Source: an uncultured Acidobacteriia bacterium
Lineage (GTDB): Bacteria; Acidobacteriota; Terriglobia; Bryobacterales; Bryobacteraceae
DNA: 64,000 nucleotides
Assembly (NCBI GenBank): GCA_903881085.1
Contig: CAIRSA010000221.1
Coordinates: 1-64,000 of the forward strand
Reading direction: 5' to 3'
Numbering within the stretch: the first letter of the stretch is position 1; each line of letters opens with the position of its first letter. Positions 24,404 through 41,009 of this stretch are shown in pieces. Position numbers and translations under genes: made by a program. The notes beneath the pieces were generated by a model, which ran no database searches, was not told the origin of the DNA, and worked only from the letters and a program-made list of their open reading frames with translations.

Positions 24404-25597
24404 ATGTTACGCCGCCAGTTTCTTGCGATTCCCGCGTTCGCCTTAGGTGTGGCGCGCGCCAAGCCGCTCAACCTGAAAATTTCTGGACTCAAGACGTTCG
24501 TCGTCAACGTAGGTAGCGTCAATTGGGTGTTCGTCAAGGTCTACACCAATCAGGGCCTCACCGGGTTGGGTGAAGGCTCCATTACCAGCAAAGAGGCCAC
24601 GCTGTCGCAGGCGATCATGGAGCACGAACGGTTTCTCGAAGGCAAGGATCCGACGGATATCGAAGCGCTGTGGCAGGGCATGTACCGCTATCCGCGTTGG
24701 CGCGGCGGACCGATTCTGAATTCGGCGATCAGTGCGGTTGAGATCGCATTATGGGACATTCTGGGCAAGGCGCTCGATCAACCGATCTACAAATTGCTGG
24801 GCGGCGCGACGCGCAGACGCATTCGCATGTACAAAGACGTTGGCTCCACGGTGGAGGCGTTTCAGCAGGCGAAAGCGGAAGGCTACACCGCCGCGAAGTC
24901 CGGCTTCATCGCCATCGACAAGGGCATTGTGGTTCCCTCGTATGCCACGCGCGAAGCGGCCAAGCGCGTCGCCGCAGTGCGCGCGGCCGTTGGCGATGAC
25001 TTCGATATCGCCATCGATGCGCACGGCCAACTCACCACCGTGATGGCCATCGATTTCTGCACGCGGGTGGAGGAGTTGCGGCCGTTGTTTGTCGAGGAGC
25101 CGACCCAGTTGGAAGACCTCGGCGAGTTGGCGCATCTTCGTTCGAAGACGAAAGTTCCGTTGGCCACCGGCGAACGTTCGTTCACCAAGTATGGCTTCAA
25201 TGAGTTCTGCAATCGCCATCTGGTCGATTACATTCAGCCCGATGTCTGCCATGCGGGCGGCATTCTTGAGCTCAAGAAGATCGGGGTTCTGGCCGAGACC
25301 AATCGAGTCGAGATGGCCCCGCACAATCCGCAGAGCGAAGTGAGCACGTTGGCGTCTTTACATGTCGATGCCACCACACCTTCAGCGACAATTCAGGAAT
25401 ACTCGCCCAACAAAGCACCTTGGATCCTGGACCTGTTCAACGGTGGCGCGGTGAAGGTGAAGAATGGCTTCGCCGAACTGCCCGATCGACCCGGCCTAGG
25501 CGTCGACCTGAATGAAAAGGTGGCTGCCGAGCATCCCTATAAACCCATCAACCGGCCCAATAATGTCTTTCTCGATGGAGCCGTAGCCGATCACTAG
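24404..25597 (+). CDS. Enolase-superfamily (mandelate racemase/muconate lactonizing) dehydratase
   Basis: A 397-residue enzyme similar to galactonate dehydratase (DgoD group). After a possible Tat-like signal (MLRRQFLAIPAFALGVARA) the capping domain is followed by the barrel with metal ligands in IDAHGQ, FVEEPTQ and TGERSF. A catalytic histidine lies in MAPHNPQSE. It would remove water from a sugar acid after metal-assisted proton abstraction. The substrate is not certain. The stop shares CTAG with the stop of the glucosidase on the other strand. Confidence 0.85.
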   Translation: MLRRQFLAIPAFALGVARAKPLNLKISGLKTFVVNVGSVNWVFVKVYTNQGLTGLGEGSITSKEATLSQAIMEHERFLEGKDPTDIEALWQGMYRYPRWRGGPILNSAISAVEIALWDILGKALDQPIYKLLGGATRRRIRMYKDVGSTVEAFQQAKAEGYTAAKSGFIAIDKGIVVPSYATREAAKRVAAVRAAVGDDFDIAIDAHGQLTTVMAIDFCTRVEELRPLFVEEPTQLEDLGELAHLRSKTKVPLATGERSFTKYGFNEFCNRHLVDYIQPDVCHAGGILELKKIGVLAETNRVEMAPHNPQSEVSTLASLHVDATTPSATIQEYSPNKAPWILDLFNGGAVKVKNGFAELPDRPGLGVDLNEKVAAEHPYKPINRPNNVFLDGAVADH

Positions 25598-27471
25598 CCG
25601 AGCCCGGTTTCGATCGCCGCACGCAGCAGTTCAGCAACACTCCAAGCCTGCGCCACGCAGCCTCGCGGAGTGTGCGGAGGGTCACCATCGGCGATCTCCG
25701 CAATCTGGCCGGGACAGGCCTGCCCGGCCACTTCCGCGCACTGGCGAATCCACTTGCGGCATTGCTCTTGTGCCTCCGCCGAACCGCTGTGTACCTTCCA
25801 ATACGCGCTGACAAAGGGGCCCAGCAGCCATGGCCACACAGTGCCCTGATGATAAGCCGAATCACGGCTACGGCCATCGCCTTCGTAGCGCGGACGGTAC
25901 TGTGAGTCGCGCGGCGACAAGCTGCGCAATCCGGCCGGAGTCAGCAGTTCACGCTGTACGGTCTCAACAATCAGCTTGGCTTGTCGCGGTGACACCATCG
26001 AGTGCGGAAGGCTGACGGCGAAAATCTGATTCGGGCGAATCGCTGCATCTCGGATTGCATTGTCGACAACATCGAACAGACATTGATCCGCTTCGTTCCA
26101 GAATTGTGTTAGGAACGATGCGCGCGCGCGTTCGGCCATGGAAGCACATTGTGCGCTGCCCTCCCCATCTAGCGCTGCCATGATGCACAACGCGTTGTAC
26201 CACAGGGCCTGAATCTCAACCGGCTTTCCCTGGCGCGGCGTCACAACCCAATCGCCAACCTTTGCGTCCATCCAGGTTAGCTGCACGCCGGGCTCGCCGG
26301 AATGAAGGAGGCCGTCTGCATCCATGCGGATGCCGTAGCGCGTGCCTCGAACGTGCCAATCGATGATATCCCGCATCGTTGCGTACAGATGTTCGCGAAC
26401 CCACTGCGGATCGTTCAGCCCGTGAATCGCTTGGAAGAACCACAGCGTTGCGTCGACGGTATTGAACTCCGGTTTGTCTCCCGCATCGGGAAAGCGGTTG
26501 GGCAACATGCCCTGATCCACGCTGGCGGCAAACTCCAATAAGATAGCGCGCGCGTCGTCGAGACGGCCGGTGGCTAGCGTTAGGCCGGGCAGCGAAATCA
26601 TGGTGTCGCGGCCCCAGTCGGTGAACCAGTGATAACCGGCGATGATCGTCTTGCCTTCGCCGCGCCGCACCAGAAATTGATCCGCTGCGGTTGTCAATGA
26701 ACGCACCAGCGGATCGCGCGCCTCAGTCAACGTGCGCCGCCGCTCTATCTCTGCGAGCCGCATTTCCGAGGCTTCCGTGACATTGTGCTGCTCAGTGGAC
26801 GCGATGATGGCCGCCTTCCCACCACGGAACCTCAGAACAAACGGCTGGAAGAGATCCTCATGAAAATCCAAGCCGCGCTCCTGTTCGTGCCTGTACTCGA
26901 AGTTGCGATACCAGGCTCCAGTTGCCTCGGCCTCTTCTGCGTCGTGCGCTAAGTGCAGGGCGGGCAATCCCCAGTAAAGTGAGACGGTCGCGGAGCCAGG
27001 TTCCATTGCAACCTCGCGATGAATCGCATTGTTCTCATGCGTCAGGCAGTGATAGTCGCGGAAGGCGATGAGCGGCCGCACTTCCAGTTCGCAGGCTGCG
27101 TCACTCACGGAGTATTCAATGACAACGGTGTTTTCTCCGTGCACAAGAAGCACGCACTTTTCGACGCGCACTCCGCCGGCCTCGAAGACAAAAACAGGAA
27201 ACGGGTCTCTGCGGAATTCCACCAGGTGGTCGAACCCTTGCGGATGTACCGCGCCGGGATACTGATTAGCCGAAAGCGCATAGCGAACGCCGCCTACTAC
27301 CAGCGTCTCTTCCAGTTTCGACAACAGTACGGTGCGGCCTGCTGGCGGATGAAGTGCAGCCACCAACAGTCCGTGATAGCGGCGCGTATTGATGCCGCTG
27401 ACTGTCGACGACGCATACCCGCCAAGGCCGTTGGTTTCCAGCCACTCCTGCTGCAACTGCGATTCATTCAT
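25594..27471 (-). CDS. Amylo-alpha-1,6-glucosidase-type glycogen debranching enzyme
   Basis: A 625-residue protein with the N-terminal domain of bacterial glycogen debranching enzymes (WLETNGLGGYASSTVSGINT, then RRYHGLLVAAL) and the C-terminal (alpha/alpha)6 barrel (GYHWFTDWGRDTMISLPGL, RFPDAGD, DATLWFF). It would cleave alpha-1,6 branches in glycogen or related glucans. There is no signal peptide, so it is cytoplasmic. No glycogen synthase or phosphorylase is near it in the window. Confidence 0.9.
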   Translation of the reverse strand: MNESQLQQEWLETNGLGGYASSTVSGINTRRYHGLLVAALHPPAGRTVLLSKLEETLVVGGVRYALSANQYPGAVHPQGFDHLVEFRRDPFPVFVFEAGGVRVEKCVLLVHGENTVVIEYSVSDAACELEVRPLIAFRDYHCLTHENNAIHREVAMEPGSATVSLYWGLPALHLAHDAEEAEATGAWYRNFEYRHEQERGLDFHEDLFQPFVLRFRGGKAAIIASTEQHNVTEASEMRLAEIERRRTLTEARDPLVRSLTTAADQFLVRRGEGKTIIAGYHWFTDWGRDTMISLPGLTLATGRLDDARAILLEFAASVDQGMLPNRFPDAGDKPEFNTVDATLWFFQAIHGLNDPQWVREHLYATMRDIIDWHVRGTRYGIRMDADGLLHSGEPGVQLTWMDAKVGDWVVTPRQGKPVEIQALWYNALCIMAALDGEGSAQCASMAERARASFLTQFWNEADQCLFDVVDNAIRDAAIRPNQIFAVSLPHSMVSPRQAKLIVETVQRELLTPAGLRSLSPRDSQYRPRYEGDGRSRDSAYHQGTVWPWLLGPFVSAYWKVHSGSAEAQEQCRKWIRQCAEVAGQACPGQIAEIADGDPPHTPRGCVAQAWSVAELLRAAIETGLG

Positions 27472-27501: not shown

Positions 27502-27933
27502 CTATTTGTGCAACCCCGGCCAGTTCCTATTTGCTTCTGCTATGCGCTGCCCCACATCCTTCTCCCATTTGTGTTGAATGTCTTTGCTGTAGTTCAGATA
27601 CAGTTTGCCCTCGATGATCTTCCATACTTCGGGGTCGATGGAAGCCGTGGAGCCCTTGCTCACAGCCCAGGCGCAATAACCGCCATACTGGGGCGCGAAT
27701 TTTTCCGGCGCGGAGACAAACTGATTGCGGTCTTCATTGTTGACGAAGAGCCACTTTGCACCCATCCATTCGAACGCCAGTTCGGCCTTGCCCTTCACTG
27801 GCATGCTTTGTTTGAAGTACGCCACGGGGTCATAACCTTTAATCGCGATGCCCGATCTGTCGTGGTTCACTGGCTCAACCGGCGAGGCCGCAAACGAGGC
27901 GGCGGCAAGTGTGAATAGCAGGAATTGTTTCAT
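27502..27933 (-). CDS. Exported YHS-domain protein
   Basis: The 143-residue product from the ATG at 27933 starts with a signal peptide (KQFLLFTLAAASFAAS). The YHS domain is seen in GYDPVAYFKQSMPVKGKAEL through PQYGGYCAWAVSKG. YHS domains occur in metal-linked proteins and may bind copper or other metals, but this one has only one cysteine in the core. An upstream start at 28005 is possible but would run into the divergent SDR promoter. It is divergent from the SDR at 28018. Confidence 0.8.
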   Translation of the reverse strand: MKQFLLFTLAAASFAASPVEPVNHDRSGIAIKGYDPVAYFKQSMPVKGKAELAFEWMGAKWLFVNNEDRNQFVSAPEKFAPQYGGYCAWAVSKGSTASIDPEVWKIIEGKLYLNYSKDIQHKWEKDVGQRIAEANRNWPGLHK

Positions 27934-28017
27934 GGCCGTTACATCCGGCGCAACCCTGGAAATATTCCTGAAGATTGGTGGAATATTCAGGTGCCATCGC
28001 GTCATAGAATTGGAGAC

Positions 28018-28818
28018 ATGCTTAGACTACAAGGCAAAAACGTACTCATCACCGGCGCATCTTCGGGAATCGGACAGGCAATCGCCATCCGCTTTGCGAA
28101 AGAGGGCGCCAACGTCGCTATCAACTATCGAAGCGGAGCTCAACAGGCAGAAGAGACTCTTGAGCTAGCCAAGGCCGCCCGCGGCGGCGCGGAGGGCAAG
28201 CAGTTCACTATTCACGCCGACGTCGCTGATGAGGCGCAGGTTAAAGAGATGTTCGCCAAGACCCTTGAAAATTTCGGCTCGCTCGACGTGCTGATCAACA
28301 ACGCCGGGATTCTAAAGCAAAGTGCCAGTCATGAAGTCGACATCGCGGATTTTGACCGCGTGCTTGCCGTCAACCTGCGTGGTCCATTCCTGTGTTCGCG
28401 CGAGGCGATCCGTCACTTTCTCACGCGCGGCGGCGGCGCGATCGTCAATAATTCCAGCGTCCACGAAATTATACCCAAGCCGAAGTACGCCGGCTACTCT
28501 GTCAGCAAAGGCGGCATGGAGAACCTGACGCGTTCGCTGGCGCTTGAGTATGCAGACCGCGGCATCCGCGTGAATGCCGTGGGCCCGGGTGCGATTGAAA
28601 CCCCGATGAACAAGGCTTGGATCGACAATCCAAAGGCCCGTGGCGAAGTGGAGAGCCACATCCCCATGGGGCGTGCGGGCAAGTCCGATGAGATCGCGGC
28701 GGTATTCGCATTCCTCGCGTCGGACGAAGCTTCGTACATTACGGGGCAGACATTGTTTGCCTGTGGCGGCTTAACGCTGTTCCCGGAATTTCGTGTTGAC
28801 TGGTCTACGGGAGAATAA
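28018..28818 (+). CDS. Short-chain dehydrogenase/reductase (glucose 1-dehydrogenase-like)
   Basis: A classical SDR of 266 residues. The cofactor motif is TGASSGIG, with the NNAG motif in LINNAGI and the catalytic YSVSK; the serine is in NNSSVHE. GAG lies just before the ATG at 28018 (LRLQGKNV). It would oxidise or reduce a hydroxyl group with NAD(P). The substrate is unknown, and the glucose 1-dehydrogenase similarity is by pattern only. It is followed after nine bases by a second SDR. Confidence 0.9.
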   Translation: MLRLQGKNVLITGASSGIGQAIAIRFAKEGANVAINYRSGAQQAEETLELAKAARGGAEGKQFTIHADVADEAQVKEMFAKTLENFGSLDVLINNAGILKQSASHEVDIADFDRVLAVNLRGPFLCSREAIRHFLTRGGGAIVNNSSVHEIIPKPKYAGYSVSKGGMENLTRSLALEYADRGIRVNAVGPGAIETPMNKAWIDNPKARGEVESHIPMGRAGKSDEIAAVFAFLASDEASYITGQTLFACGGLTLFPEFRVDWSTGE

Positions 28819-28827
28819 GGAGTCAGT

Positions 28828-29511
28828 ATGCAATTGAATGGAAAGATCGCGCTCATTACCGGCGCAAACGGTGGTCTTGGCAATGCCGTGACCACCGCGT
28901 TTCTGGACGCTGGGGCGCGGGTCATCGGCGTTTCGCGCTCGATCAAAGATTCTGACTTCGCGCACCCTGCCTTCTCTGCCATCGCGGCCGAGATCGCAGA
29001 TAGTGCTGGCGCGCGTGACTTGTCCGCCCGCGCGGGCCGCGTCGACATCTTCGTTCACCTGGTTGGAGGTTTCACCGGCGGCAAGCCGGTTCATGAGACT
29101 AACGATACGGACCTGGAACGTATGCTCGATCTGAACTTGCGCACGGCGTTCTATCTGCTGAAAGCGTTTCTGCCAGGCATGCGCGAACAGGGCTCGGGAC
29201 GCGTGCTAGCCATCGCCAGCCGCGCCGCGATTGAGCCGGCGGCGATGGCGGGTGCGTATTCAGCATCGAAGGCGGCGCTGGTGTCGTTGGTCCAAACCGT
29301 GGCACGCGAAAATAAGGATCACGGCATCACTGCGAATGTGCTGTTGCCCGGCTCGATGGACACGCCTGCGAATCGCGCGGGCAATCCTGGCGGTGATTTT
29401 TCAAAGTTCGTCTCACCGCAGCAGGTGGCGGCAATGCTGGTGCATCTCGCCTCGGATTCGGCTTCAAATATTAATGGCGCGGCCATTCCGATTTACGGAG
29501 GCGACTTGTAG
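28828..29511 (+). CDS. Short-chain dehydrogenase/reductase
   Basis: A 227-residue SDR with TGANGGLG at the cofactor site, a HLVGGF segment in place of NNAG, and the catalytic YSASK with its serine in IASRAA. AGGAG precedes the ATG by seven bases. It is somewhat shorter than usual. It is just upstream of the membrane redox genes beginning at 29516, so it may be read with them. Substrate unknown. Confidence 0.88.
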   Translation: MQLNGKIALITGANGGLGNAVTTAFLDAGARVIGVSRSIKDSDFAHPAFSAIAAEIADSAGARDLSARAGRVDIFVHLVGGFTGGKPVHETNDTDLERMLDLNLRTAFYLLKAFLPGMREQGSGRVLAIASRAAIEPAAMAGAYSASKAALVSLVQTVARENKDHGITANVLLPGSMDTPANRAGNPGGDFSKFVSPQQVAAMLVHLASDSASNINGAAIPIYGGDL

Positions 29512-29515
29512 GCAT

Positions 29516-29695
29516 ATGGCTGAATGGATCGCGTTTTTGTTGATGGTTTATGGCGGTGCAGGCCTTCTGTTTGGCCTGCTGTTTGTGAGCCGGGCGATTC
29601 ATAGTGGCACTTTGGGATTTCGCATCATCATCCTTCCAGCCGCAGCCGCGTTATGGCCGCTGCTGGCCATGCGATGGGCGGCGGGACGTTTATGA
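29516..29695 (+). CDS. Membrane microprotein, first of redox operon
   Basis: A 59-residue protein that I think is real because it is tightly coupled: it starts five bases after the SDR stop and its TGA overlaps the next ATG. It has two predicted membrane helices (about 4-24 and 33-52) and ends in basic residues. I do not recognise a family. It could be a small subunit of the membrane complex encoded downstream. Confidence 0.65.
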   Translation: MAEWIAFLLMVYGGAGLLFGLLFVSRAIHSGTLGFRIIILPAAAALWPLLAMRWAAGRL

Positions 29696-29835
29696 TTCAA
29701 CCACTGCGGCGCTGGCATTTTCAAATTTGGGTGGCGCTCGCCATTGCTCTGCCGCTGATTGTGGCTGTGGCACTCTGGTTCCGACGCGATACGGTTCTGC
29801 CTAATCCCGGCCTGCATTGGGAGACCGTGCGATGA
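29692..29835 (+). CDS. Single-span membrane microprotein of redox operon
   Basis: A 47-residue protein with one strong membrane helix (WVALAIALPLIVAVALWF) and a polar tail. The start overlaps the preceding stop by four bases and the stop overlaps the ferric reductase start in the same way, which is good evidence that it is translated. No family is recognised. Confidence 0.65.
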   Translation: MIQPLRRWHFQIWVALAIALPLIVAVALWFRRDTVLPNPGLHWETVR

Positions 29836-30803
29836 GCCTCGGATACAAAGCCATTAGTTGGACTCGCGAGAAAAAGAATTACGACATCACGTTGGCCTCG
29901 GGCGTGGTTGCCTATCTTGCGGTGTTCTCTGGCCTGGGCGCCGTGGTGCATCCCGATGCCACCGCGGAAACCCTGTTAATCCGCGGCTTCGGAACACTGG
30001 CTCTGTTTTTGTTGCACGTGATTCTGTGCATTGGTCCGCTATGCCGCTTGGACGCGCGATTCCTGCCGCTGCTCTTTAACCGGCGGCATCTGGGCGTCAC
30101 CATGTTTCTATGCGCGCTGGTGCACGGAGTGTTTTCTCTCATTCAATTTCATGCTTTGGGCGATGTGCCGGCATTGGTCAGTCTTTTCCAGTTGCACTCG
30201 TTTCAATTGCTGGGCTTTCTGGCGTTAATGATCCTGTTCCTGATGGCCGCCACCAGCCATGATTACTGGTTGGCCACACTCACTCCGCGGGCATGGAAGA
30301 GTTTGCACATGATGGTCTACGTCGCTTATGTGCTGCTGATTGGGCACGTCTCGTTTGGCGCGCTGCAATCGGAAACCAGTCCATGGCTTGCGGCGATATT
30401 GTGTGCCGGAGTTGTGGTGGTGACCGGTCTGCATATTTCTGCTGCGAAGCGGGAAGCGGACAAAGACGCAGTGCCCGCGCAGGTCGATGCCGATGGCTTC
30501 CACCTGGCTTGCGACTTGTCGGCCATCCCGGAAAACCAAGCTTACGTCGTCTCCGCCGGTGGCGAGCGCATCGCATTGTTCCGCCATAATGGAAGCGTTT
30601 CGGCTATCTCCAACGTTTGCGCGCATCAGAACGGGCCACTGGGCGAAGGCCGCATCATTGACGGTTGCGTTACCTGTCCGTGGCACGGCTATCAGTATCT
30701 GCCGGAGACAGGACGAGCGCCTGCTCCGTTCACCGAACGGGTGGACATCTACCCGGTGAAAGTGGTGGCGGGGAAAGTGATGGTGCATCCCAAATGCAAA
30801 TGA
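29832..30803 (+). CDS. Ferric-reductase-like membrane domain fused to Rieske [2Fe-2S] domain
   Basis: A 323-residue fusion. The first 220 residues contain about six membrane helices with paired histidines (LLHVILC, ALVHGVFS, QLHSFQLL, SLHMMVY, IGHVSFG) that would hold b-type haem, as in ferric reductases and MsrQ. The last 100 residues are a Rieske domain with the cluster ligands in NVCAHQN and VTCPWHGYQ. Electrons could pass between haem and the [2Fe-2S] cluster across or along the membrane. The start overlaps the microprotein stop and the end overlaps the next gene, both by ATGA. The partner and electron donor are not known. Confidence 0.85.
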   Translation: MSLGYKAISWTREKKNYDITLASGVVAYLAVFSGLGAVVHPDATAETLLIRGFGTLALFLLHVILCIGPLCRLDARFLPLLFNRRHLGVTMFLCALVHGVFSLIQFHALGDVPALVSLFQLHSFQLLGFLALMILFLMAATSHDYWLATLTPRAWKSLHMMVYVAYVLLIGHVSFGALQSETSPWLAAILCAGVVVVTGLHISAAKREADKDAVPAQVDADGFHLACDLSAIPENQAYVVSAGGERIALFRHNGSVSAISNVCAHQNGPLGEGRIIDGCVTCPWHGYQYLPETGRAPAPFTERVDIYPVKVVAGKVMVHPKCK

Positions 30804-31417
30804 AACGTATCGTCGCGCTTCTATTCGTTATTGGCATGGGCGTTGCCGCGGCTCTCATGACCGCTCAACATCCATTTGCGAAAGTGCTGTTCGAGTTTGA
30901 ACAATACCGCGATTACGAAGGCGTTCTTGCGGACTGGCCGCAGCCAACTCTGATTACCAAGGACGACCGGTACCTGTTGGTTAGTCCCGGCAAGCATGGC
31001 TTTGCATCGGCTTACGCGGGGCGCATCGTCAGATTGAAAGGCTCCTTGATCCGGCGCGGCTCGGACTCGATGTTGGAGGTGGTCCCCGAATCGGTGCAAC
31101 CCCAAGGCGAGGCAACCGCGCCGCCCAAACCAATGGCACTGGGCAGCTTCACGCTGCAAGGCGAAATTGTCGATAGCAAGTGCTTCCTTGGCGTCATGAA
31201 TCCGGGCAGCGGGACGGTTCACCATGACTGCGCGGTGCGCTGCATCAGCGGCGGCATTCCTGCGGCTTTCCTGGTGAGGGATGCCGCGGGTGTTTCGCGC
31301 GTTTTGCTACTTGACGGCATGAGCAAAGAGGCGATCCTCGCTCATGTTGCAGCGCCAATCACGCTTCATGGCCAAGTGCGCCAGGTTGGCAAAACGCTGA
31401 TTTTAACCGTGGAATAA
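30800..31417 (+). CDS. Membrane-anchored Cys/His-rich protein of redox operon
   Basis: A 205-residue protein. The ATG at 30800 overlaps the ferric-reductase stop (ATGA); a second ATG is six bases earlier. The N-terminus is a signal or anchor helix (MKRIVALLFVIGMGVAAAL). Near the middle a GEIVDSKCF segment is followed by VHHDCAVRCISGGIP, giving a C...HH-x-C-x3-C cluster that could bind metal or a redox cofactor. I recall homologs next to Rieske genes in Acidobacteriota but no named function. It may be the periplasmic partner of the reductase. Confidence 0.7.
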   Translation: MKRIVALLFVIGMGVAAALMTAQHPFAKVLFEFEQYRDYEGVLADWPQPTLITKDDRYLLVSPGKHGFASAYAGRIVRLKGSLIRRGSDSMLEVVPESVQPQGEATAPPKPMALGSFTLQGEIVDSKCFLGVMNPGSGTVHHDCAVRCISGGIPAAFLVRDAAGVSRVLLLDGMSKEAILAHVAAPITLHGQVRQVGKTLILTVE

Positions 31418-31448
31418 ACGGTGTCTGCGCCTGGATACAGTGGGCGTG

Positions 31449-31862
31449 ATGAACACCTCAAAATCTTTCAGAATCGCAAGCTGGGTGCTGCGCTTAGCCG
31501 TAGCCGTTATCCTGCTTCAGACGCTCTTCTTCAAGTTCACGGCCGCCAAAGAATCGGTCTACATCTTTTCCACGCTTGGTCTGGAGCCGTGGGGCCGGAT
31601 CGGCTCGGGCGTGGCTGAATTGATTGCCTCCGTTTTGATCCTGATGCCATCCACCATTGCTGTTGGCGCGCTGTTGTCGTTGGGTGTCATCAGCGGTGCA
31701 ATCGTTAGCCATCTGACGAAACTGGGAATCGCACTACCCGCTGTCGGCGACAACGGAGAACTGTTTGCGCTTGCGGTGGCCGTCTTTATTGGCTCGGCTG
31801 TGCTGTTGGCGATGCATCGGGCGCAGTTGTTCTTGCTGGTGAAGCGGTTCGCAAACGCGTGA
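31449..31862 (+). CDS. DoxX-family membrane protein
   Basis: A 137-residue protein with four predicted membrane helices. The RLAVAVILLQTLFFKF start and the SGVAELIASVLILMP motif are typical of the DoxX/DoxD family, which is found in quinone- and thiol-linked membrane systems. The ATG at 31449 follows the preceding stop by about 30 bases, so it is likely part of the same transcript. Its exact role is unknown. Confidence 0.8.
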   Translation: MNTSKSFRIASWVLRLAVAVILLQTLFFKFTAAKESVYIFSTLGLEPWGRIGSGVAELIASVLILMPSTIAVGALLSLGVISGAIVSHLTKLGIALPAVGDNGELFALAVAVFIGSAVLLAMHRAQLFLLVKRFANA

Positions 31863-31988
31863 TCTGGAGGCGTTCGCACGCCGCCGCTTCAACGTGCCCG
31901 CCCAATGTTTTTACGCTGCCTTAACAAAACCGGGCCTACTTTTTACCGTCGCTTTCCGATTCCTGTGGTCTCATTGGTAGAGGCCATC

Positions 31989-33902
31989 ATGAAACCATCT
32001 GCACAGCTACTCCTCGCGACAATCACGATCGCTTCTGCCCTGGCTCAGCCGCCTGGCGGACCTGGCGGCGGTCAAAGCGGAGACGGCATCTGGCGCCGCA
32101 ACGCCTACTACGGGGAACTACTCACGTTCGATGCCTGCGTCGGCCACCAACCCGGTAATGGATCGTACCACTATCACGCTTCGCCGCAATGTCTGCGCGC
32201 ACAACTCAACGACAACTTGCAGATTGTTCGCACATCGCGAAATGGCTCTAATTATGCGGAGCTGGCCTCGGGGTGGCATCATTCACCGATTTTGGGCTGG
32301 GCTCCGGATGGGTATCCGATCTATGGCCCCTACGGCTATTCCAGCGCCACGGATCCGAAGAGCCCCATCAAGCGCATAAAATCAGGTTTCCGATTACGTC
32401 CCATCACGCGTCGCACTTCTTTGCCTGACTGGTCGCTGCCGAATCATAGCGCTGTCTCGCAAACGCTGACATCATCGCAGTACGGCCCCGACGTTAGCGC
32501 GAACTTTCCGCTGGGCCGCTACGTGGAGGATTACGAGTGGGCGTCCGGAGTGGGCGACCTGGATCAATACAACGGTCGCCTCACGGTCACTCCCGAATTT
32601 CCCGGAGGCACTTATGCCTACTACGTGACAGTCGACGACTCGGGTACGCCTGCGTTCCCGTTCGTGATTGCAGGCCAATATTACGGCACCGTCGGCAGCG
32701 CATTCAATGCCACGGTTCCATCCACCGCGGTGGACTACTTCAATTCCGGAACGGTCACCGCAGCGCCTGCCAAGCCCGCGCTGAACTCCTGGTCGACCAC
32801 GTATTCCACGCAGTTTGCGAAGGTGGTTTCTGCGTTTGATCCATCGGCGGGACCATCTACCACTTGGCCGGGGACCAACAACATCGGTGTCCGCACATCG
32901 GGTTCAGTTACAACGCCTGCACTGGCTGAAGCGCAGCGCATCCGCTACACCGACTCTACCGTTTACTTCACATCGAACGGCATCGCTGGACACACCATGG
33001 GGCCATGGTTCAGCGCCGATATGACCGCCGGCATTTTCGTGAACTTCCCCAGCAGCATATCGACTACCTTCCAGGTTTCGTTGACTCCCGCAGTTGCCAC
33101 CACACGCACCTCAACCGGCATGGGATCGCAGGGCATGTGGGTCAACGGAGTGGTGCTGTTCAACTTTCTTGACGGGGCAACCTACACCAATAGCACCGGC
33201 GCTGACTCGCAGGCCGGCAACACGCCCGCACTGGATGCTGCCGTCACCTCGGCCGCATCATTGGAGCAAGGGCCGCAAGCCCCCGGCTCTATCGCCTCTG
33301 CCTTCCCGCTGTTCTTTTCTGTACTTGCCACCTCCACCGCGAGTGCAACGTCGGCCGATTGGCCGCTCACTCTGGGCGGCGCGTCCATTAGCGTGACCGA
33401 TTCGGCCGGAACGAGTTCACCAGCAAAGATTGCTTATGCTTCGCCAACGCAGATCAACTTCCTGATGCCAACCGGCTTGGCCAGCGGCGCGGGAACGGTC
33501 ACCATCACCGCGGGCACCAACGCCATCACATCGAAGATCAACATCCAACCTGTTTACCCGAATCTCTTCATGGCCAATGCTAGCGCGCTTGCCGCAGGCA
33601 CTGTTGCCCGGTTGCATAATGGCGTGGCCACGAACGAAGCACTCAGCGGCCCGGTCGCCCTCAACGGCGATCAGGTCTATCTGGTTCTTTATGGCTCCGG
33701 GCTTGGCTTTGCAACCTCCGCCACAGCAACCATCGGAGGAGTGGATGCCACGGTTTATTACGCCGGGCCACAGGGCACGTACTCGGGACTCGATCAGTAC
33801 AACATCCTCATCCCTGCGTCGCTGGCGGGGAAGGGGAAGGTGGATGTGATTGTAAAGGCCGGCGGCAAATCGTCGAACCCGGTCAACGTCGTAATTCAGT
33901 AA
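31989..33902 (+). CDS. Secreted YHYH-domain protein with TIGR03437-type C-terminal domain
   Basis: A 637-residue exported protein; the signal peptide covers about residues 1-20. The YHYH motif is intact (Y60-H61-Y62-H63 in NGSYHYHASPQC), preceded by FDACVGHQPG, and is followed by HSPILGWAPDGYPIYGPYGY. The last 230 residues contain the Ig-like domain seen in many Solibacter secreted proteins, ending in GPQGTYSGLDQYN and KVDVIVKAGGKSSNPVNV. The YHYH domain has no proven activity; its histidines suggest metal binding. The gene is the first of three paralogs in a row. Confidence 0.85.
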   Translation: MKPSAQLLLATITIASALAQPPGGPGGGQSGDGIWRRNAYYGELLTFDACVGHQPGNGSYHYHASPQCLRAQLNDNLQIVRTSRNGSNYAELASGWHHSPILGWAPDGYPIYGPYGYSSATDPKSPIKRIKSGFRLRPITRRTSLPDWSLPNHSAVSQTLTSSQYGPDVSANFPLGRYVEDYEWASGVGDLDQYNGRLTVTPEFPGGTYAYYVTVDDSGTPAFPFVIAGQYYGTVGSAFNATVPSTAVDYFNSGTVTAAPAKPALNSWSTTYSTQFAKVVSAFDPSAGPSTTWPGTNNIGVRTSGSVTTPALAEAQRIRYTDSTVYFTSNGIAGHTMGPWFSADMTAGIFVNFPSSISTTFQVSLTPAVATTRTSTGMGSQGMWVNGVVLFNFLDGATYTNSTGADSQAGNTPALDAAVTSAASLEQGPQAPGSIASAFPLFFSVLATSTASATSADWPLTLGGASISVTDSAGTSSPAKIAYASPTQINFLMPTGLASGAGTVTITAGTNAITSKINIQPVYPNLFMANASALAAGTVARLHNGVATNEALSGPVALNGDQVYLVLYGSGLGFATSATATIGGVDATVYYAGPQGTYSGLDQYNILIPASLAGKGKVDVIVKAGGKSSNPVNVVIQ

Positions 33903-33919
33903 TATCGAAGGATTCAACT

Positions 33920-35893
33920 ATGACGCCTCTTCGCAAACTTTCTGTTTTTTTGTTCTTTGCTGCGGCAGCAATCGCCCAGCCACCGGGTCCGCCGCCTGGC
34001 GGTCCACCCGGCGGGCCCGGACAAAGCGGGGACGGCATCTGGCTGCGCAATGCCTACTATGGCGAAAAGGAAACCTTCGACGCCTGCCTCGGGCACCAGC
34101 CAGGCGCGGGGGAATACCACCATCACGTGCAGCCCATCTGCCTGCGTGCGCAATTGAACGATAATCTGGAACTCGTGGCGACGGGCCGCACAGGCAGCAT
34201 GTATCGCGAGAAGGCCTCGGGGTGGACACATTCGCCGATCCTTGGTTGGGCACTCGACGGCTACCCCATCTACGGCCCCTATGGGTACACCGATCCGAAG
34301 AGCGCCTCGAGTCCCGTCAAACGCATGAAGTCGAGCTTCCGGCTGCGTTCGATCACCACTCGCGATTCGCTGTCCGCATGGGCGTTGCCTTATCACAACG
34401 GAATATCGCAAACACTGACTGCGAAACAGGCCGGTCCTCCCGTCAGCGAGCGGTTTCCGCTGGGCCGATACGCCGAGGATAACGACTACATCGCGGGTTC
34501 CGGAGACCTTGACCAATACAACGGGCGCTTCACCATAACGCCGGATTTCCCGGCAGGCACATACGCCTATTTCCTCACGTTGAATGACGATGGTACGCCG
34601 GCCTTCCCCTTCATTTTGGGCCTGCAGTATTACGGCAATGCCAGCGGCGGGCAGGCGCGCACCATTCCAACCGATGCGCAGGATTACTTCAATGGCGGCA
34701 CGTTCACTGCTGCGTCACCCACTACGGATCCGCAACTGAAATCCATGCTCACAAAGAATTCGCAGACGTATGCACGGGCCGTTGTGGCATGGGATCCGTC
34801 TGCCGGACCGCAGACCATCTGGCCGGGTCCGCTGGCGCCGGCGAACTCCCGCACGTCGGGCGGCGTGACTACGCCGGCATTCGCAGACGTGCAGCGCATC
34901 CGCACCAATGCCAGCACACTTTATGTGAACTCAAACAATTTGCCCAGCTACGTGATTGGGCCGTGGTTTGCGTCAATGAACGGAGGCGTTTTCATGAACT
35001 TCGCTGCTGCGCAAAACGCCCAGATGCAATTGCCGCGCGCGCCGCAGCCCGCGACGGCAACCCATAACAATACGGGGCTCGGGGCGATTGGCATCTGGGT
35101 CAACGGGGTTGCGGTGTTCAATGCGATGGACGGCGCCAGCTACAGCAACGCGGCAGGCGACGATGCCGGCGGCGGAATCGTGACCCAGACGGCCTTCCAC
35201 GTTTCCTCGGCTTCGCTGGAAGGAGGACCCCTGACTCCCGGGGCGCTGGTCAGCGCCTTCGCAAATTTCGACGCCAAGCTGGCTACTTCCACCGATCAGG
35301 CCAGCACTCCGAATTGGCCGCTTACGCTGGGCGGCGCGACCGTTACGATCCGCGACGCGGCTGGTGTGTCCACGCAAGCGGCTATCTCCTATGCTTCGCC
35401 GAAGCAGATCAACTATCGCATTCCAGACTCCGTAGCTCCGGGCGTTGCAACGGTGAATATCACTGCCGGAGGTGTGACGGTTCCTGGCGGCATCAACATC
35501 ATGGCCGCATATCCGGGCATCTTCAAAGCAAGTATCGATAACATCGCTGCTGCGCAGGTCGCGCGCGTTCAGGCCGGTAAGGCTGTCTACGCGCCGGTTG
35601 TTGCCGCAACGCCGGCTGGAGCGATTGTTGCTGCGCCTTTCGCAATCGGACCAGCCGCCGAACAGGCCACGCTCATCCTCTACGGGACTGGGCTCAACAA
35701 TGCCAAGGACGTCACCGTTACAATTGGTGGAATGCCGGCGCAGCTAACCTACGCCGGACCGCAAGGCACGTACTCCGGACTCGATCAGATCAACGTTTTA
35801 CTCCCTCAATCATTGGCCGGCAAAGGTAAAGTCGACATCATTGTCACCGCCGGCGGTAAACCATCGAATCCGGTGAACGTAACCATTCAGTGA
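33920..35893 (+). CDS. Secreted YHYH-domain protein, second paralog
   Basis: A 657-residue paralog of the preceding gene with the same layout: signal peptide, a Pro/Gly-rich segment (PPGPPPGGPPGGPGQSG), YHYH domain, and a C-terminal TIGR03437-like domain. Here the motif reads YHHH (GEYHHHVQPIC), so one aromatic residue is replaced by histidine. The HSPILGWALDGYPIYGPYGY segment is nearly the same. It starts 17 bases after its neighbour, which implies tandem duplication and co-transcription. Confidence 0.85.
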   Translation: MTPLRKLSVFLFFAAAAIAQPPGPPPGGPPGGPGQSGDGIWLRNAYYGEKETFDACLGHQPGAGEYHHHVQPICLRAQLNDNLELVATGRTGSMYREKASGWTHSPILGWALDGYPIYGPYGYTDPKSASSPVKRMKSSFRLRSITTRDSLSAWALPYHNGISQTLTAKQAGPPVSERFPLGRYAEDNDYIAGSGDLDQYNGRFTITPDFPAGTYAYFLTLNDDGTPAFPFILGLQYYGNASGGQARTIPTDAQDYFNGGTFTAASPTTDPQLKSMLTKNSQTYARAVVAWDPSAGPQTIWPGPLAPANSRTSGGVTTPAFADVQRIRTNASTLYVNSNNLPSYVIGPWFASMNGGVFMNFAAAQNAQMQLPRAPQPATATHNNTGLGAIGIWVNGVAVFNAMDGASYSNAAGDDAGGGIVTQTAFHVSSASLEGGPLTPGALVSAFANFDAKLATSTDQASTPNWPLTLGGATVTIRDAAGVSTQAAISYASPKQINYRIPDSVAPGVATVNITAGGVTVPGGINIMAAYPGIFKASIDNIAAAQVARVQAGKAVYAPVVAATPAGAIVAAPFAIGPAAEQATLILYGTGLNNAKDVTVTIGGMPAQLTYAGPQGTYSGLDQINVLLPQSLAGKGKVDIIVTAGGKPSNPVNVTIQ

Positions 35894-35899
35894 TGTGAA

Positions 35900-37900
35900 A
35901 TGATAGTATTGATGACCGTTGGCCGCGTATTCCCCGTTTTTCTATGCGTTTCCGCAGTGCTGCAAGCGCAGCCCGTGAAGTCGGTGTGGATCCAGGGCAA
36001 CCCTCCCCCTGGATCTACGGCCGCCGCCGCGAAAGTTCGTCCCGATGTGCACTCGCTCCAGTTCACCGATTCCGAAGTAATCGTACGTTCTGCGGGTCTT
36101 TCGCTCGCCTATCTGGGGCCACTCGAAGGCCCGCCGGTTCCCCGCAACGAACCGCGGGAGTTCGTGTTCCGCTTTCCCCTCTATCCGCGGCAGGAGACGG
36201 GCAACCACGCCCACGTCGGCTCGGAATATGTGGGCGCCTTTGTTAACGGAGTGCCCATCTACAACCAGTTTGAGGCCGCATCATATATGGGCCAGAACAT
36301 CTGGCACTACGATCTGATTGCACGCGGCGACGATGGGACCCGTACAGTGGCAGGCCGCCCGCGCAAGGATCTGACCCACGCTCAGCGTACCGGGCTTCTC
36401 GAAAGCCTGATCCCTGGCAATGGCCAGCACTCGCCGATCATTGGCTATGCGTTCGACGGTTTTCCGATCTACGGCCCGTGGGGCGGCACACCTCCTGAAA
36501 CGTTGCACCGCATGCGCTCCAGCTACCGGCTGCGCCAGATCAGGACGCGCGAGAAGCTTGCTAATGGAATTCTACTGACGCCCAGCCAGACGGGTCCGCC
36601 TGTCGGTCGCGAATATCCGCTCGGCACATTCGTGGAAGACTATGAATACGTCGAAGGTTCCGGCGACCTGGATCAATACAATGGCCGCGTCGTCAAGACG
36701 CCGAACTATCCGGAAGGCATCTACGCCTACTTCCTCAGCACTGCCGAAGACGGCCGGCTGACGTTTCCCTACTTGTTGGCGCGCGAATATTACGGCAGTT
36801 TTTACTACGCCGTTCCCTTTACCAATGCCAGCCAGACGCGTGGCGAAGAAGCGCAGATCCACTTTCGCGCAGCTTCGACACTGACCGCCGGGCAACCGGT
36901 GCTGCTGCAGTTTCTGATCAATGACAGATTGCGGCGGCCGGTCCGTTATCTGGAACATGTTCACGAACGCCCAATTCATTTGATGGCGATCTCCCAGGAT
37001 TTGCAGGATTTCGCGCATATCCATCCGGAAGTTAGCGAACTGGGCGTATGGCAGATTTCGCACGTGTTTCCGCACGGCGGAAGATACAACCTCTATGCCG
37101 ATTTTTCCGCACCGGGCGAACTGCCGCGAGTGGAGACGTTTGAGATTACGGTGCAAGGGCAACCGCGCGTGAAGTCCGTCTTGGGGCCCACTCCGCTAAC
37201 GGCGAAAACATCTGGCGGGATTCCAATCACAATGGAAGCTTCGGCACCTATGCGCGCTTTTACGGAGTTCGAACTACGCTTTCAATTAGGAGACGGCAAG
37301 ACTCCCATCGCCGGGCTCGAGCCTTATCTTGGAGCATGGGCGCACGCCGCCATTGTGGGCGAAAAGCTCTCCAGCTTTGCGCACCTACATCCCTTTGAAG
37401 AGGGCGGCAGCACCGTGAAATTGAGCGAGGCCCATGTGCACACCCCGGAATCGCTTGGTCCAGCGCCAAAGCAAGTAAGGATCCTCACCAGTTTCATGCA
37501 GGGCGGATTGTACAAGCTGTGGCTGCAATTTCAGGTTGCGGGCAAGGTTGAGACCGTGCCGTTTGTCTTGAAAATTGCTCCGCCTGAGCCTGTGGAGCCG
37601 AAACCGCTGAAGGTTCCCAAAGACGCCATCTTTGTGTACGTTGGGGCAAAAGGTTTTGACCCGCCGCGCGTCTTCATTCCGCAAGACAAGGCCACCACGT
37701 TTATCTTCCTGCGCAGCGCCGAGCCCAATTGCGCCAATAAAATCGTATTCCCGGACCTTGGCATTACGCGCGACATTCCGTTCGCCGGCAACACCATTAT
37801 TGAGCTTCCCCCGCAAGGCGCGGGCGAATTGCGTTTCACCTGCGGCATGGGGATGTACCGTGGCAGCATCGTTGTCGTCAGGCCTCCTGAGCCCGAATAA
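35900..37900 (+). CDS. Secreted YHYH protein with two His-rich repeats and a cupredoxin domain
   Basis: A 666-residue exported protein. Residues 1-23 form a signal peptide. The N-terminal half is a diverged YHYH domain: NIWHYD replaces YHYH but HSPIIGYAFDGFPIYGPWGG at 177-196 is kept. Two related segments follow, marked by FAHIHP at 371-376 and FAHLHP at 493-498, each followed by a G-G-x-Y-x-L strand. The C-terminal 90 residues are a cupredoxin with C611 in PNCANKIVFP and FTCGMGMYRG (C648, M650, M652), the copper-site pattern of PF13473. It likely carries copper. Its end overlaps the ATP-grasp gene by 23 bases. TIGR03437 is absent. Confidence 0.85.
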   Translation: MIVLMTVGRVFPVFLCVSAVLQAQPVKSVWIQGNPPPGSTAAAAKVRPDVHSLQFTDSEVIVRSAGLSLAYLGPLEGPPVPRNEPREFVFRFPLYPRQETGNHAHVGSEYVGAFVNGVPIYNQFEAASYMGQNIWHYDLIARGDDGTRTVAGRPRKDLTHAQRTGLLESLIPGNGQHSPIIGYAFDGFPIYGPWGGTPPETLHRMRSSYRLRQIRTREKLANGILLTPSQTGPPVGREYPLGTFVEDYEYVEGSGDLDQYNGRVVKTPNYPEGIYAYFLSTAEDGRLTFPYLLAREYYGSFYYAVPFTNASQTRGEEAQIHFRAASTLTAGQPVLLQFLINDRLRRPVRYLEHVHERPIHLMAISQDLQDFAHIHPEVSELGVWQISHVFPHGGRYNLYADFSAPGELPRVETFEITVQGQPRVKSVLGPTPLTAKTSGGIPITMEASAPMRAFTEFELRFQLGDGKTPIAGLEPYLGAWAHAAIVGEKLSSFAHLHPFEEGGSTVKLSEAHVHTPESLGPAPKQVRILTSFMQGGLYKLWLQFQVAGKVETVPFVLKIAPPEPVEPKPLKVPKDAIFVYVGAKGFDPPRVFIPQDKATTFIFLRSAEPNCANKIVFPDLGITRDIPFAGNTIIELPPQGAGELRFTCGMGMYRGSIVVVRPPEPE

Positions 37901-38876
37901 CTTCGCCGCTACGAAGACTCTGCCACACTTCGGCCGCAGGCGGCACTACGGCGCCCCGCAACCGGTTCTGCGCGCCGATCTCAAAGGCCAATCGCCACTG
38001 CTGGGCCAGCACGCGATAGGCCTCACGGAGGCTGACTGCCGGGTCGTAGATGTGTGTGGCTTCAGCCGAGACTCCGTTCAATTCCAGCACGGTGAACTCG
38101 GCGATCCGTTCTTCCGATGGCGCGCGCACATCGTACCGGCCGAAATAGAATCCCGGGTGTGACTTGCTCAACTGATCGATGCGATCTTCCAGCTCGGGCG
38201 TGTGGCAGGTCATGCCATCGAGGAAAATGGAACCTCGGGAATGAGAGCCGATCTCGACCAATTGCACGCGCTCGCCTGCACGCGGAGTATCGTTCAACGG
38301 GCGCTTGCTCTGGCGCATGTAGACGGAGGCCAGGCACATCGCCCGTGGATCGCTTAAAATCAACTCCGCCAGTGTCCTGGTACCATCGCCAATGACTTCG
38401 GGGAATCTCTTATCCGTAATCGACAGGATGCGCCCCTTGGCTTCGTCGGGCATGCGGCAGTAGAAGATTCCGAACTCCACTCCGGCCACGTAGCGCTGCA
38501 CAATCGATTTGCCCGCTGTCTGGGCGAAATAGTTGTGTACGTCATCCTCATTCCTGATGACGGCCACGCCCTTGCCACGCTCTCCCACATCGGGTTTCAG
38601 GACAGCAGGAAAACTTTCGATCCACAGCAGCGCCTGTGCGGCGTTCTCAACCAGGGCGAAAGGCGCCACGGCCGCCGGATCCAATTGCCTCAAAATTTCC
38701 GACTTCGATTCGCCGACGAAACCGCCTCCGTCCATGCCCGGATTGGCCGCAAGAAACACGGTGGCTGAACGATGCTTCAGCGCCAGATAAATCAGGTAGG
38801 GTACCAGCGGCAGGTATACCGCCCAGATGGGCCAGAACTCCCATCGCAACCGGCCTCCGCGAAACGATCGTTTCAT
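37878..38876 (-). CDS. Membrane-anchored ATP-grasp-like protein
   Basis: A 332-residue protein. An N-terminal membrane segment (WPIWAVYLPLVPYLIYLAL) is followed by an ATP-grasp fold: PAVLKPDVGERGKGVAVI is the ATP-binding strand-loop, with VQRYVAGVEFGIFYCR and EFTVLELNGVSAEATH, which carries the metal-binding E and N. ATP-grasp enzymes join a carboxylate to an amine or thiol. A membrane anchor is unusual. Substrate unknown. It overlaps the upstream NRDE gene by four bases, so they are probably one operon. Confidence 0.75.
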   Translation of the reverse strand: MKRSFRGGRLRWEFWPIWAVYLPLVPYLIYLALKHRSATVFLAANPGMDGGGFVGESKSEILRQLDPAAVAPFALVENAAQALLWIESFPAVLKPDVGERGKGVAVIRNEDDVHNYFAQTAGKSIVQRYVAGVEFGIFYCRMPDEAKGRILSITDKRFPEVIGDGTRTLAELILSDPRAMCLASVYMRQSKRPLNDTPRAGERVQLVEIGSHSRGSIFLDGMTCHTPELEDRIDQLSKSHPGFYFGRYDVRAPSEERIAEFTVLELNGVSAEATHIYDPAVSLREAYRVLAQQWRLAFEIGAQNRLRGAVVPPAAEVWQSLRSGEVIRAQEA

Positions 38877-39577
38877 TGTTGCCGCTCCATTCGTTTGATC
38901 TCGCTTTCGAGCCCTCTACACGGAGCTCCCGGCGAATAGTGGAACTCTACTTCGCGTGGCGTGACGCGAATTCTGCTGAAGCTCACTGTTTCCGCATCGA
39001 GCCGGTGCATGCATGGGGAATAGGCGCTGGGCCCATCGGCATGGCTTGCATGAAACGAGCTCATTGCCGCGGCATCGATCACGCCCGGCATCTTCGCGAA
39101 CTCCGCTGTTCTTCGTTCCCGCACCGATTCCGGGGCAAATGACGAGGAGATCAAAGGAAGCATCTCATCGCCGGCCAGGTTGGTGCGTAGCTCTTCGCGG
39201 TTCCACTGTGCCACCATCGCCGGCGACCCGGGCATCAATGCAGCCATTGTGAACGGTGCATAGGCGGCCAATCCTGCGGCTGCGACGCGTGGCCTCACCT
39301 CTTCCATCGAACGCGCCGCAATCAACGACAATACCAGCAATCCGCGGCTGGTGAACGGACCCGCGCTGGGCTTTCCGTTCAACAGGCATATGCTCAAACC
39401 ATGCTCATTGACTGCAATCCACGATCCGCCGAAGTTGCCGTCAATTGGCGCGATGCAGCGCACTCCTTCTCGCGTCTCGACATGCGGCCCGGAGCTCTGC
39501 GCCCTGCTCCGCTTCTCATCGCGATTGCAAAATAGCTGGTAGCCACCATCCTCATGGAGCCAACTGACGGTACACAT
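38873..39577 (-). CDS. NRDE (TANGO2-like) protein
   Basis: The product from the ATG at 39577 has 234 residues and begins MCTVSWLHEDGGYQLFCNRDE, which contains the NRDE motif and an N-terminal cysteine after Met that is expected for the Ntn-hydrolase fold of this family. GSWIAVNEHGLSICLLN is also characteristic. Eukaryotic TANGO2 has been linked to haem and acyl-CoA handling; bacterial members are uncharacterised. It overlaps DinB by one base and the ATP-grasp gene by four bases. Confidence 0.8.
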   Translation of the reverse strand: MCTVSWLHEDGGYQLFCNRDEKRSRAQSSGPHVETREGVRCIAPIDGNFGGSWIAVNEHGLSICLLNGKPSAGPFTSRGLLVLSLIAARSMEEVRPRVAAAGLAAYAPFTMAALMPGSPAMVAQWNREELRTNLAGDEMLPLISSSFAPESVRERRTAEFAKMPGVIDAAAMSSFHASHADGPSAYSPCMHRLDAETVSFSRIRVTPREVEFHYSPGAPCRGLESEIKRMERQQ

Positions 39578-40110
39578 CAGGCCGCCTCCGCACTCGCCTG
39601 CGAGGCACGATGACGCAGCGTCGATGGCGCCACTCCGAAGTCCGCTTCCACCTCGCATCCGCGCTGGCGCAGCATCATTGCGATCAAAGCGAAATGATGC
39701 ACCGTGTGGCTGCTCAGCACCATCAATTCGCGGCCGATCGACGACGCCAGGAAGTCGTGGTCGACATGGAGGCCTTCCGCATCTTCCATCCGCACCCAAA
39801 CGATGGCATCGCCACGCAGCGCCGGCAAGGAATCCATCGCCGCCATCAGAGCCTGAATCTTTGTCGAGGCGGCTTGCGCGCAACGAGCAATCGACTCGTC
39901 CCGCTTTCTTGCGTCATAATCAATATGAGACGACTCCACCCCGTTGAGGAAACACTCGTAGAAATCCAGGATGTGCCGCACCTGTCCGCCGCACGCCTCA
40001 TAGGACTCTTGGGAAAGGGAGGAGATCAGCCGCAGTCCCTGAGCCAGCCAGTTGCGGTTCATCTCAAGTAGCGCGTTTTGTCGCGGGGCGAAATTGGTTT
40101 GAGTTGCCAT
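39577..40110 (-). CDS. DinB-family protein
   Basis: A 177-residue four-helix-bundle protein. The histidines in GGQVRHILDFYECF, LHVDHDF and SSHTVHHFALIAMMLRQRG fit the metal site of DinB/YfiT proteins, several of which are thiol-dependent transferases or hydrolases. It is the first gene of the DinB-NRDE-ATP-grasp set and overlaps the next start by one base. No substrate can be named. Confidence 0.8.
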   Translation of the reverse strand: MATQTNFAPRQNALLEMNRNWLAQGLRLISSLSQESYEACGGQVRHILDFYECFLNGVESSHIDYDARKRDESIARCAQAASTKIQALMAAMDSLPALRGDAIVWVRMEDAEGLHVDHDFLASSIGRELMVLSSHTVHHFALIAMMLRQRGCEVEADFGVAPSTLRHRASQASAEAA

Positions 40111-40196: not shown

Positions 40197-41009
40197 ATGA
40201 GTCAGCGTTCCAATTCTACGACTTTACACTGGCCCGAATACCTGATGGAGGCATTTGGCCTTGGCATTTTCATGTTGTCTGCCTGCGTATTCGACGCATT
40301 GTTGGAACACCCCAGTTCGCCCCTTCACCTAATGCTGGACGACGCCTTTTTGCGCCGCGCGCTGATGGGCGTGGTGATGGGGCTTACGGCGATCGCCATT
40401 TTCTACTCGCCGTGGGGCAAACGTTCCGGTGCGCACATCAATCCAGCAGTTACACTGGCCTTTTATACGTTAGGAAAGATCCGCTCGGTGGATGCCACCG
40501 GGTACGTCATCGCTCAGTTTGCCGGGAGCGCGGCGGGCGTCGGTGTCGCGGCTCTGCTGATCGGACCTCCTCTCGCGCACTCGTCGGTAAATTTTGTTGT
40601 CACCGTTCCAATGCCTGGCGGCGAGCTGACGGCCTTCCTGGCGGAAGCGCTCATCTCATTCTTAATGGTGACCACGGTTTTGCTGGTCTCAAATACGAAA
40701 GAGATATCGCACTATACGCCGCTGTTTGCCGGTTCACTGGTGGCTCTGTTCATCACCTTTGAAGCGCCGCTTTCGGGCATGAGCATGAACCCGGCGCGCA
40801 CTTTTGCCTCGGCAGTCTTCGCCAATGATTGGCGTGGCGGCTGGATCTACTTTACTGCACCATTTCTGGGGATGACCGCGGCGGCTCAACTTTATCGCTT
40901 CCACAGCGGACTTCACCGCGTCTTTTGCGCTAAACTACATCCGCACCATCATCATTCCGCGGTCTGCATCTTCCACTGTAATTACGGAGAACTTCATGGA
41001 AACCAGTAA
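40197..41009 (+). CDS. Aquaporin/MIP-family channel
   Basis: A 270-residue channel with the two pore motifs of the family, GAHINPAVTLAF and SGMSMNPARTFASAVF. About six membrane helices are present. It conducts water or small neutral solutes. The C-terminal 35 residues are rich in histidine (PHHHHS). The 3' end overlaps the next gene by 14 bases in another frame, so the C-terminus may vary among strains. Confidence 0.92.
   Translation: MSQRSNSTTLHWPEYLMEAFGLGIFMLSACVFDALLEHPSSPLHLMLDDAFLRRALMGVVMGLTAIAIFYSPWGKRSGAHINPAVTLAFYTLGKIRSVDATGYVIAQFAGSAAGVGVAALLIGPPLAHSSVNFVVTVPMPGGELTAFLAEALISFLMVTTVLLVSNTKEISHYTPLFAGSLVALFITFEAPLSGMSMNPARTFASAVFANDWRGGWIYFTAPFLGMTAAAQLYRFHSGLHRVFCAKLHPHHHHSAVCIFHCNYGELHGNQ

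Follow-up and report, generated by a model that had tools for sequence, protein, structure and literature searches.

Four genes that follow one another on the + strand of the window (the whole stretch of 64,000 nucleotides analysed here, from an uncultured Acidobacteriia bacterium) raise the question of whether two membrane microproteins, a ferric-reductase-type (FRD) protein fused to a Rieske domain and an anchored Cys/His protein belong to a single electron-transfer system. The four, named o1 to o4, form one contiguous row, and together with the genes on either side they are laid out as follows:

28018..28818, + strand: SDR1, second short-chain dehydrogenase (Pfam; start estimated)
28828..29511, + strand: SDR2, short-chain dehydrogenase, probable fifth operon gene (Pfam adh_short, 7.7e-37)
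29516..29695, + strand: o1, 59-aa membrane microprotein with two hydrophobic helices (family profile)
29692..29835, + strand: o2, 47-aa single-span microprotein (motif MIxPLRxxHR)
29832..30803, + strand: o3, 323 aa, six-span ferric-reductase-type domain plus C-terminal Rieske [2Fe-2S] domain (Pfam PF01794 and PF00355)
30800..31417, + strand: o4, 205 aa, N-terminally anchored, with two OB-like barrels (alignment and AlphaFold2 model)
31440..31862, + strand: DoxX-like membrane protein downstream of o4 (below the Pfam gathering score)

A row of four overlapping genes

Each of the three o1-o4 junctions is an exact ATGA overlap (at 29692, 29832 and 30800), and the four reading frames described in the initial annotation proved correct in all their coordinates. 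The overlaps had been taken there as evidence of fixed subunit ratios; they indicate instead that o1-o4 are co-transcribed and, probably, translationally coupled. At homologous loci the -4 overlap joins o1 to o2 in 21 of 35 cases, o2 to o3 in 25 of 36 and o3 to o4 in 21 of 44. SDR1 lies 9 bp upstream of SDR2, which ends at 29511, 4 bp 5' of o1, and the DoxX-like gene starts about 22 bp past the end of o4. An SDR ends 2-32 bp before o1 at loci of Bryobacteraceae, Bacteroidota and Rhizobium, and it belongs to the operon in these three lineages. The initial annotation had overlooked this SDR. No Pfam or NCBIfam family matches o1, o2 or o4 over its cut-off. Set beside its homologues, the window operon appears to be a streamlined variant, with a short o1 loop and without the o2 domain, the o3 C-terminal tail and the o4 N-terminal tail.

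Distribution and linkage of the set

A scan with o4 as the query over one genome per species gave 36 loci, assigned by record title to Acidobacteriota, Myxococcota, Planctomycetota, Bacteroidota (including Rhodothermota), Gemmatimonadota, Calditrichota, KSB1, Verrucomicrobiota and Gammaproteobacteria. About nine phyla and the Rhizobium plasmids share the order o1-o2-o3-o4, and iterated profile searches recovered o1 and o2 where expected in almost every complete locus. Among 247 Acidobacteriota genomes, strong cases of o3 occur in 25, of o4 in 24 and of o1 in 23, always adjacent, with an extra weak and partial o1 match in G172 that is probably due to chance; among 61 close relatives, strong o3 and strong o4 matches fall in the identical 8. 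Three apparent gaps in the linkage (G302, G228 and G247) were ruled out as exceptions, the sequence in all of them beginning or ending inside o3 at a contig end, and L041, whose contig is rearranged or mis-joined, retains o4 but no more of o3 than its Rieske end. The initial annotation had left it to related genomes to show whether the four genes keep a constant order or are scattered or missing; they keep it in the Acidobacteriota, in the other phyla and on the plasmids alike.

Further signs of association were found in the sequences themselves. L048 and L050 encode o1 and o2 as one fused protein and L034 has a read-through fusion, and pairwise distances correlate between o3 and o4 (r = 0.82) and between o1 and either o3 or o4 (r = 0.73-0.74), all of these values being without a background control. 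On the Rhizobium plasmids, SDR-o1-o2-o3-o4 and a further 70-aa membrane protein are each annotated separately, NCBI (PGAP) having independently called both microproteins. That the microproteins are chance or mis-called ORFs is excluded by their conservation in about nine phyla and by these independent calls; positionally conserved relatives in almost all homologous loci and the recurrent -4 overlap lead to the same conclusion. The 70-aa protein (o5) overlaps the end of o4 (L197:8859-9071, L198:8865-9074, L199:8859-9071) and is followed by a UPF0093-family gene in L199. Cultured hosts of the system are Rhizobium leguminosarum bv. trifolii WSM1689, Acanthopleuribacter pedis and Sulfidibacter corallicola; in WSM1689 the genes o1 to o4 carry the locus tags RLEG3_RS31985, RS35040, RS31990 and RS31995.

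An FRD-Rieske fusion with invariant ligands

o3 matches Ferric_reduct (PF01794) over residues 53-170 (2.3e-12; 47.5 bits against a cut-off of 28) and Rieske (PF00355) over residues 225-307 (7.7e-16). In a 34-row alignment H86, H98, H143, H159 and H172 are invariant, as are the Rieske ligands C263, H265, C282 and H285 (C-x-H ... C-x2-H), in agreement with the fusion and the ligands that the initial annotation had read from the window. H107, ligand-like in a first alignment, is missing from the Rhizobium copy and is therefore not essential.

The outer haem ligands of NOX2 are H115 and H222 (PMC3591440). By spacing, H98 and H172 of o3 align with H115 and H222, and H159 aligns with H209. In YedZ and STEAP an Arg replaces the first canonical haem His (PMC3591440); R84 of o3 sits, again by spacing, at this position, and the invariant H86, two residues past R84, may act as a substitute inner haem ligand. 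On sequence grounds o3 is a member of the FRD superfamily and a putative haem b protein.

Positive charge is unevenly spread: mean K+R counts are 4.1 in loop 2-3, 3.6 in the N-terminus, 2.9 behind TM6 and 1.6 in loop 4-5, the remaining loops having close to 0-1. Given this concentration, the N-terminus and the Rieske domain are predicted to be cytoplasmic. The window o3 has no twin-Arg motif ahead of TM6.

The microproteins and the anchored Cys/His protein

The o1 family has the motif Y-x3-G-x2-F ... GFRLLI-x-PG-x2-ALWPLLL, with Y12, G16, F19, F23, P41, W47 and P48 invariant; between the helices lies a conserved loop, shorter by 7 residues in the window copy, and a PG-x2-ALWP motif is conserved as well. 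In many other phyla o2 carries an extra beta domain of about 110 residues that the window o2 lacks, and the model of this long form shows a TM helix and a beta sandwich (pLDDT 87).

The Cys/His cluster that the initial annotation had noticed in the 205-residue protein is near-invariant across the family. In the window it reads C128...H141-x2-C144-x3-C148 (general form C-x12-H-x2-C-x3-C), it is kept in 69 of 70 o4 copies, and it is part of a longer signature, GE[IV]-x3-KC-x4-M-x-P ... H-x2-C-x3-C-x2-GG. An AlphaFold2 model built from 36 sequences (pLDDT 91.6) shows two all-beta domains behind a membrane helix, with the motif in the second of these domains, on two inserted helices. Many weak fold matches are OB folds, and neither profile nor fold searches found PDB relatives at E <= 0.001. 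DUF5818 (PF19135) matches 5 of 36 family members weakly (best 1.9e-4), and the window o4 is not among them. A cytoplasmic N-tail motif, F-[YF]-[IVL]-G-[YW], is found in 40 of 44 o4 loci and is lost in the window copy and in three other Acidobacteriota copies. From the modelled fold and the motif, o4 probably represents a new class of predicted periplasmic metal- or thiol-binding protein (double OB, Cys3-His).

L085 (G007) keeps all four genes, and its o4 is without any Cys or His of the motif. Its o3, in which the Rieske ligands are kept, has Gln in place of H159 and is the only complete o3 in the set with this His replaced. The locus appears to be a natural degenerate or re-purposed variant of the operon, and this paired loss, a single case, is what one electron flow through both the haem path and the o4 site would predict.

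A wider family of short secreted proteins has an o4-like C-H-C-C motif (for example L105:4742-5116 and L104:4614-5237, and others in L139 and L145), and some are encoded in heavy-metal RND efflux operons or near respiratory complexes and a dihaem peroxidase.

Neighbouring genes

Neighbour statistics were drawn from at most 36 loci. Close homologues of SDR1 are also found upstream in L018, L019 and L020. The operon-linked SDR may be the connection of the system to NAD(P)H, although SDRs transfer hydride; a strictly linked cytoplasmic electron donor was not found at the o1-o4 loci. Of 36 loci, 8 have a DoxX-like homologue no more than about 6 kb away, which makes it a frequent, not a constant, neighbour. 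Several genes of the window (27502-28005 and 37878-40110) reappear close to the operon, at up to about 6 kb, in other phyla: YHS in 9 of 36 loci, ATP-grasp in 13 (fused to a VTT domain in the Verrucomicrobia locus L029), TANGO2/NRDE in 6 and DinB in 11, which suggests a larger conserved neighbourhood.

Other associations are more local. Two Bacteroidota loci (L051 and L052) share further flanking genes with the window (25594-27471 and 40197-42567): those for a glycogen-debranching-type enzyme, an aquaporin and a GMC oxidoreductase. A different glucosidase lies nearby in Rhizobium (L197). Three large tandem proteins occupy 31905-37900 of the window. The first matches YHYH (PF14240), and by eye the other two resemble each other; at other loci the operon has none of the three within 6 kb. 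Directly downstream of the operon in several phyla (L026, L039, L047, L048 and L050) are GNAT (PF13444) and PlsC-type acyltransferase genes that resemble those of ornithine-lipid synthesis.

Comparison with known systems

FRD proteins (NOX, STEAP, MsrQ) are a major electron export route, and to our knowledge very few bacterial members have been characterised. MsrQ (YedZ) and o3 are alike in their six-span FRD, in the His residues of TM3 and TM5 and, by spacing, in the Arg replacing the first NOX haem His; in both, the presumed path of electrons leads from the cytoplasm to a periplasmic partner. In contrast to MsrPQ, o3 has a fused Rieske domain, and two microproteins and a double-OB partner stand in place of the molybdopterin protein MsrP. 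Against the NCBIfam MsrQ equivalog o3 scores 48.2 bits, the cut-off being 130, and no MsrP gene lies beside it: the four Oxidored_molyb genes of the genome are on other contigs, and none is among the recurrent neighbours that were clustered. Membership of MsrPQ was rejected on this score and on the missing MsrP partner. The source genome also encodes a separate short FRD protein.

STEAP and bacterial ferric reductases share the FRD membrane core with o3 and, in characterised members, export electrons across the membrane to metal. Their electrons enter via NADPH/FAD or F420-type domains, whereas in o3 entry would be via the Rieske domain, and a dedicated periplasmic protein partner is added. 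o3 is not a NOX, having no C-terminal FAD/NADPH dehydrogenase domain and matching only Ferric_reduct and Rieske-type domains; nor does it belong to bc1/b6f, there being no match to a cytochrome b family and the Rieske domain being predicted cytoplasmic rather than extracytoplasmic. The closest relatives of this domain are AndAb, HcaC and BphF, the Rieske ferredoxins of ring-hydroxylating dioxygenases, which are soluble, while that of o3 is fused to a putative membrane haem protein.

The FRD plus Rieske architecture was catalogued from Pfam annotations as model M4 (PMC3591440), and the fusion alone is therefore not new. M4 is drawn with an FMN element, and the available part of that paper does not describe gene partners, microproteins or o4. 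Our search of the literature on the four-gene combination returned nothing on the operon, and the conserved set and o4 appear to be new as far as the searched literature goes.

Proposed electron flow and alternative explanations

We lean, with a confidence somewhat better than even, to the reading that o1-o4 form one outward membrane electron-transfer module resembling MsrQ, STEAP and NOX. Electrons would pass from a soluble cytoplasmic reductase or ferredoxin to the Rieske [2Fe-2S] cluster of o3, from there to an inner b-type haem held by H86/H159 (TM3/TM5, cytoplasmic side) and on to an outer haem held by H98/H172 (TM3/TM5, outer side). The periplasmic Cys3-His motif of o4, as a metal or thiol redox site, would accept them and o4 would deliver them to an envelope substrate or metal, with o1 and o2 as small structural subunits holding o3 and o4 together; the role could lie in envelope redox maintenance or in metal reduction. 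Electron transfer is proposed because the haem-type His, the Rieske ligands and the o4 Cys/His residues are conserved, and a single module because of the strict adjacency, the o1-o2 fusions, the paired loss in L085 and the correlated o3/o4 distances. The initial annotation had proposed one undescribed electron-transfer complex: linkage, conserved ligands and the lack of literature on the operon speak for it, while the physical complex is something that we still infer.

Two FRD functions from the literature, metal reduction and MsrP reduction, suit o1-o4 equally well. A tentative alternative, which we consider possible though distinctly less probable, is an outward metalloreductase or copper-handling system in which the Cys3-His motif of o4 would be a copper (or iron) site held in the reduced state by the haem chain. 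STEAP and FRE do reduce ferric and cupric ions (PMC3591440), and YHS and DUF1223 genes are recurrent neighbours of the operon. The long-form o2 domain is weakly like the copper proteins PmoD and CrdA, but only at E of about 0.01-0.02 and about 13% identity, and the window o2 is without it. Short C-H-C-C proteins (CPMHP/CPICGM proteins) adjoin heavy-metal efflux genes at 4 of the 21 loci sampled, compared with 1 of 16 control stretches, a suggestive difference that is not significant, and the o1-o4 operon itself has no linked copper transporter.

Electrons might also flow inward, from a periplasmic reductant through o4 and haem to the cytoplasmic Rieske domain and a cytoplasmic oxygenase or other acceptor, as Rieske ferredoxins of the AndAb, HcaC and BphF type normally feed oxygenases. 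We hold this to be improbable: characterised FRD proteins export electrons (PMC3591440 and PMC5676040), and the genes linked to the operon include no terminal oxygenase component. Just as doubtful is a merely co-regulated set, with o1 and o2 as assembly or stability factors, o3 a lone ferric-reductase-like protein and o4 a separate envelope protein. The strongly variable length of o2 and the persistence of the operon in L085 after loss of the o4 site would fit such a set, but the strict linkage across phyla, the o1-o2 fusions, the correlated divergence and the coincidence of that loss with the replacement of H159 argue against it.

Significance

Present annotation calls one of the four products a 'Rieske domain protein' and the other three hypothetical. 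As the system is present in cultured hosts, its function is open to direct testing there. We judge the odds slightly in favour of a widespread and unnamed electron-export system, in at least nine bacterial phyla, in which two obligate microproteins and a periplasmic redox protein of a new class (double OB, Cys3-His) would accompany a Rieske-fed FRD haem protein. What the locus offers is an operon, complete and strictly conserved, that adds to the FRD family a new electron-entry domain, two microproteins and a putative periplasmic acceptor.
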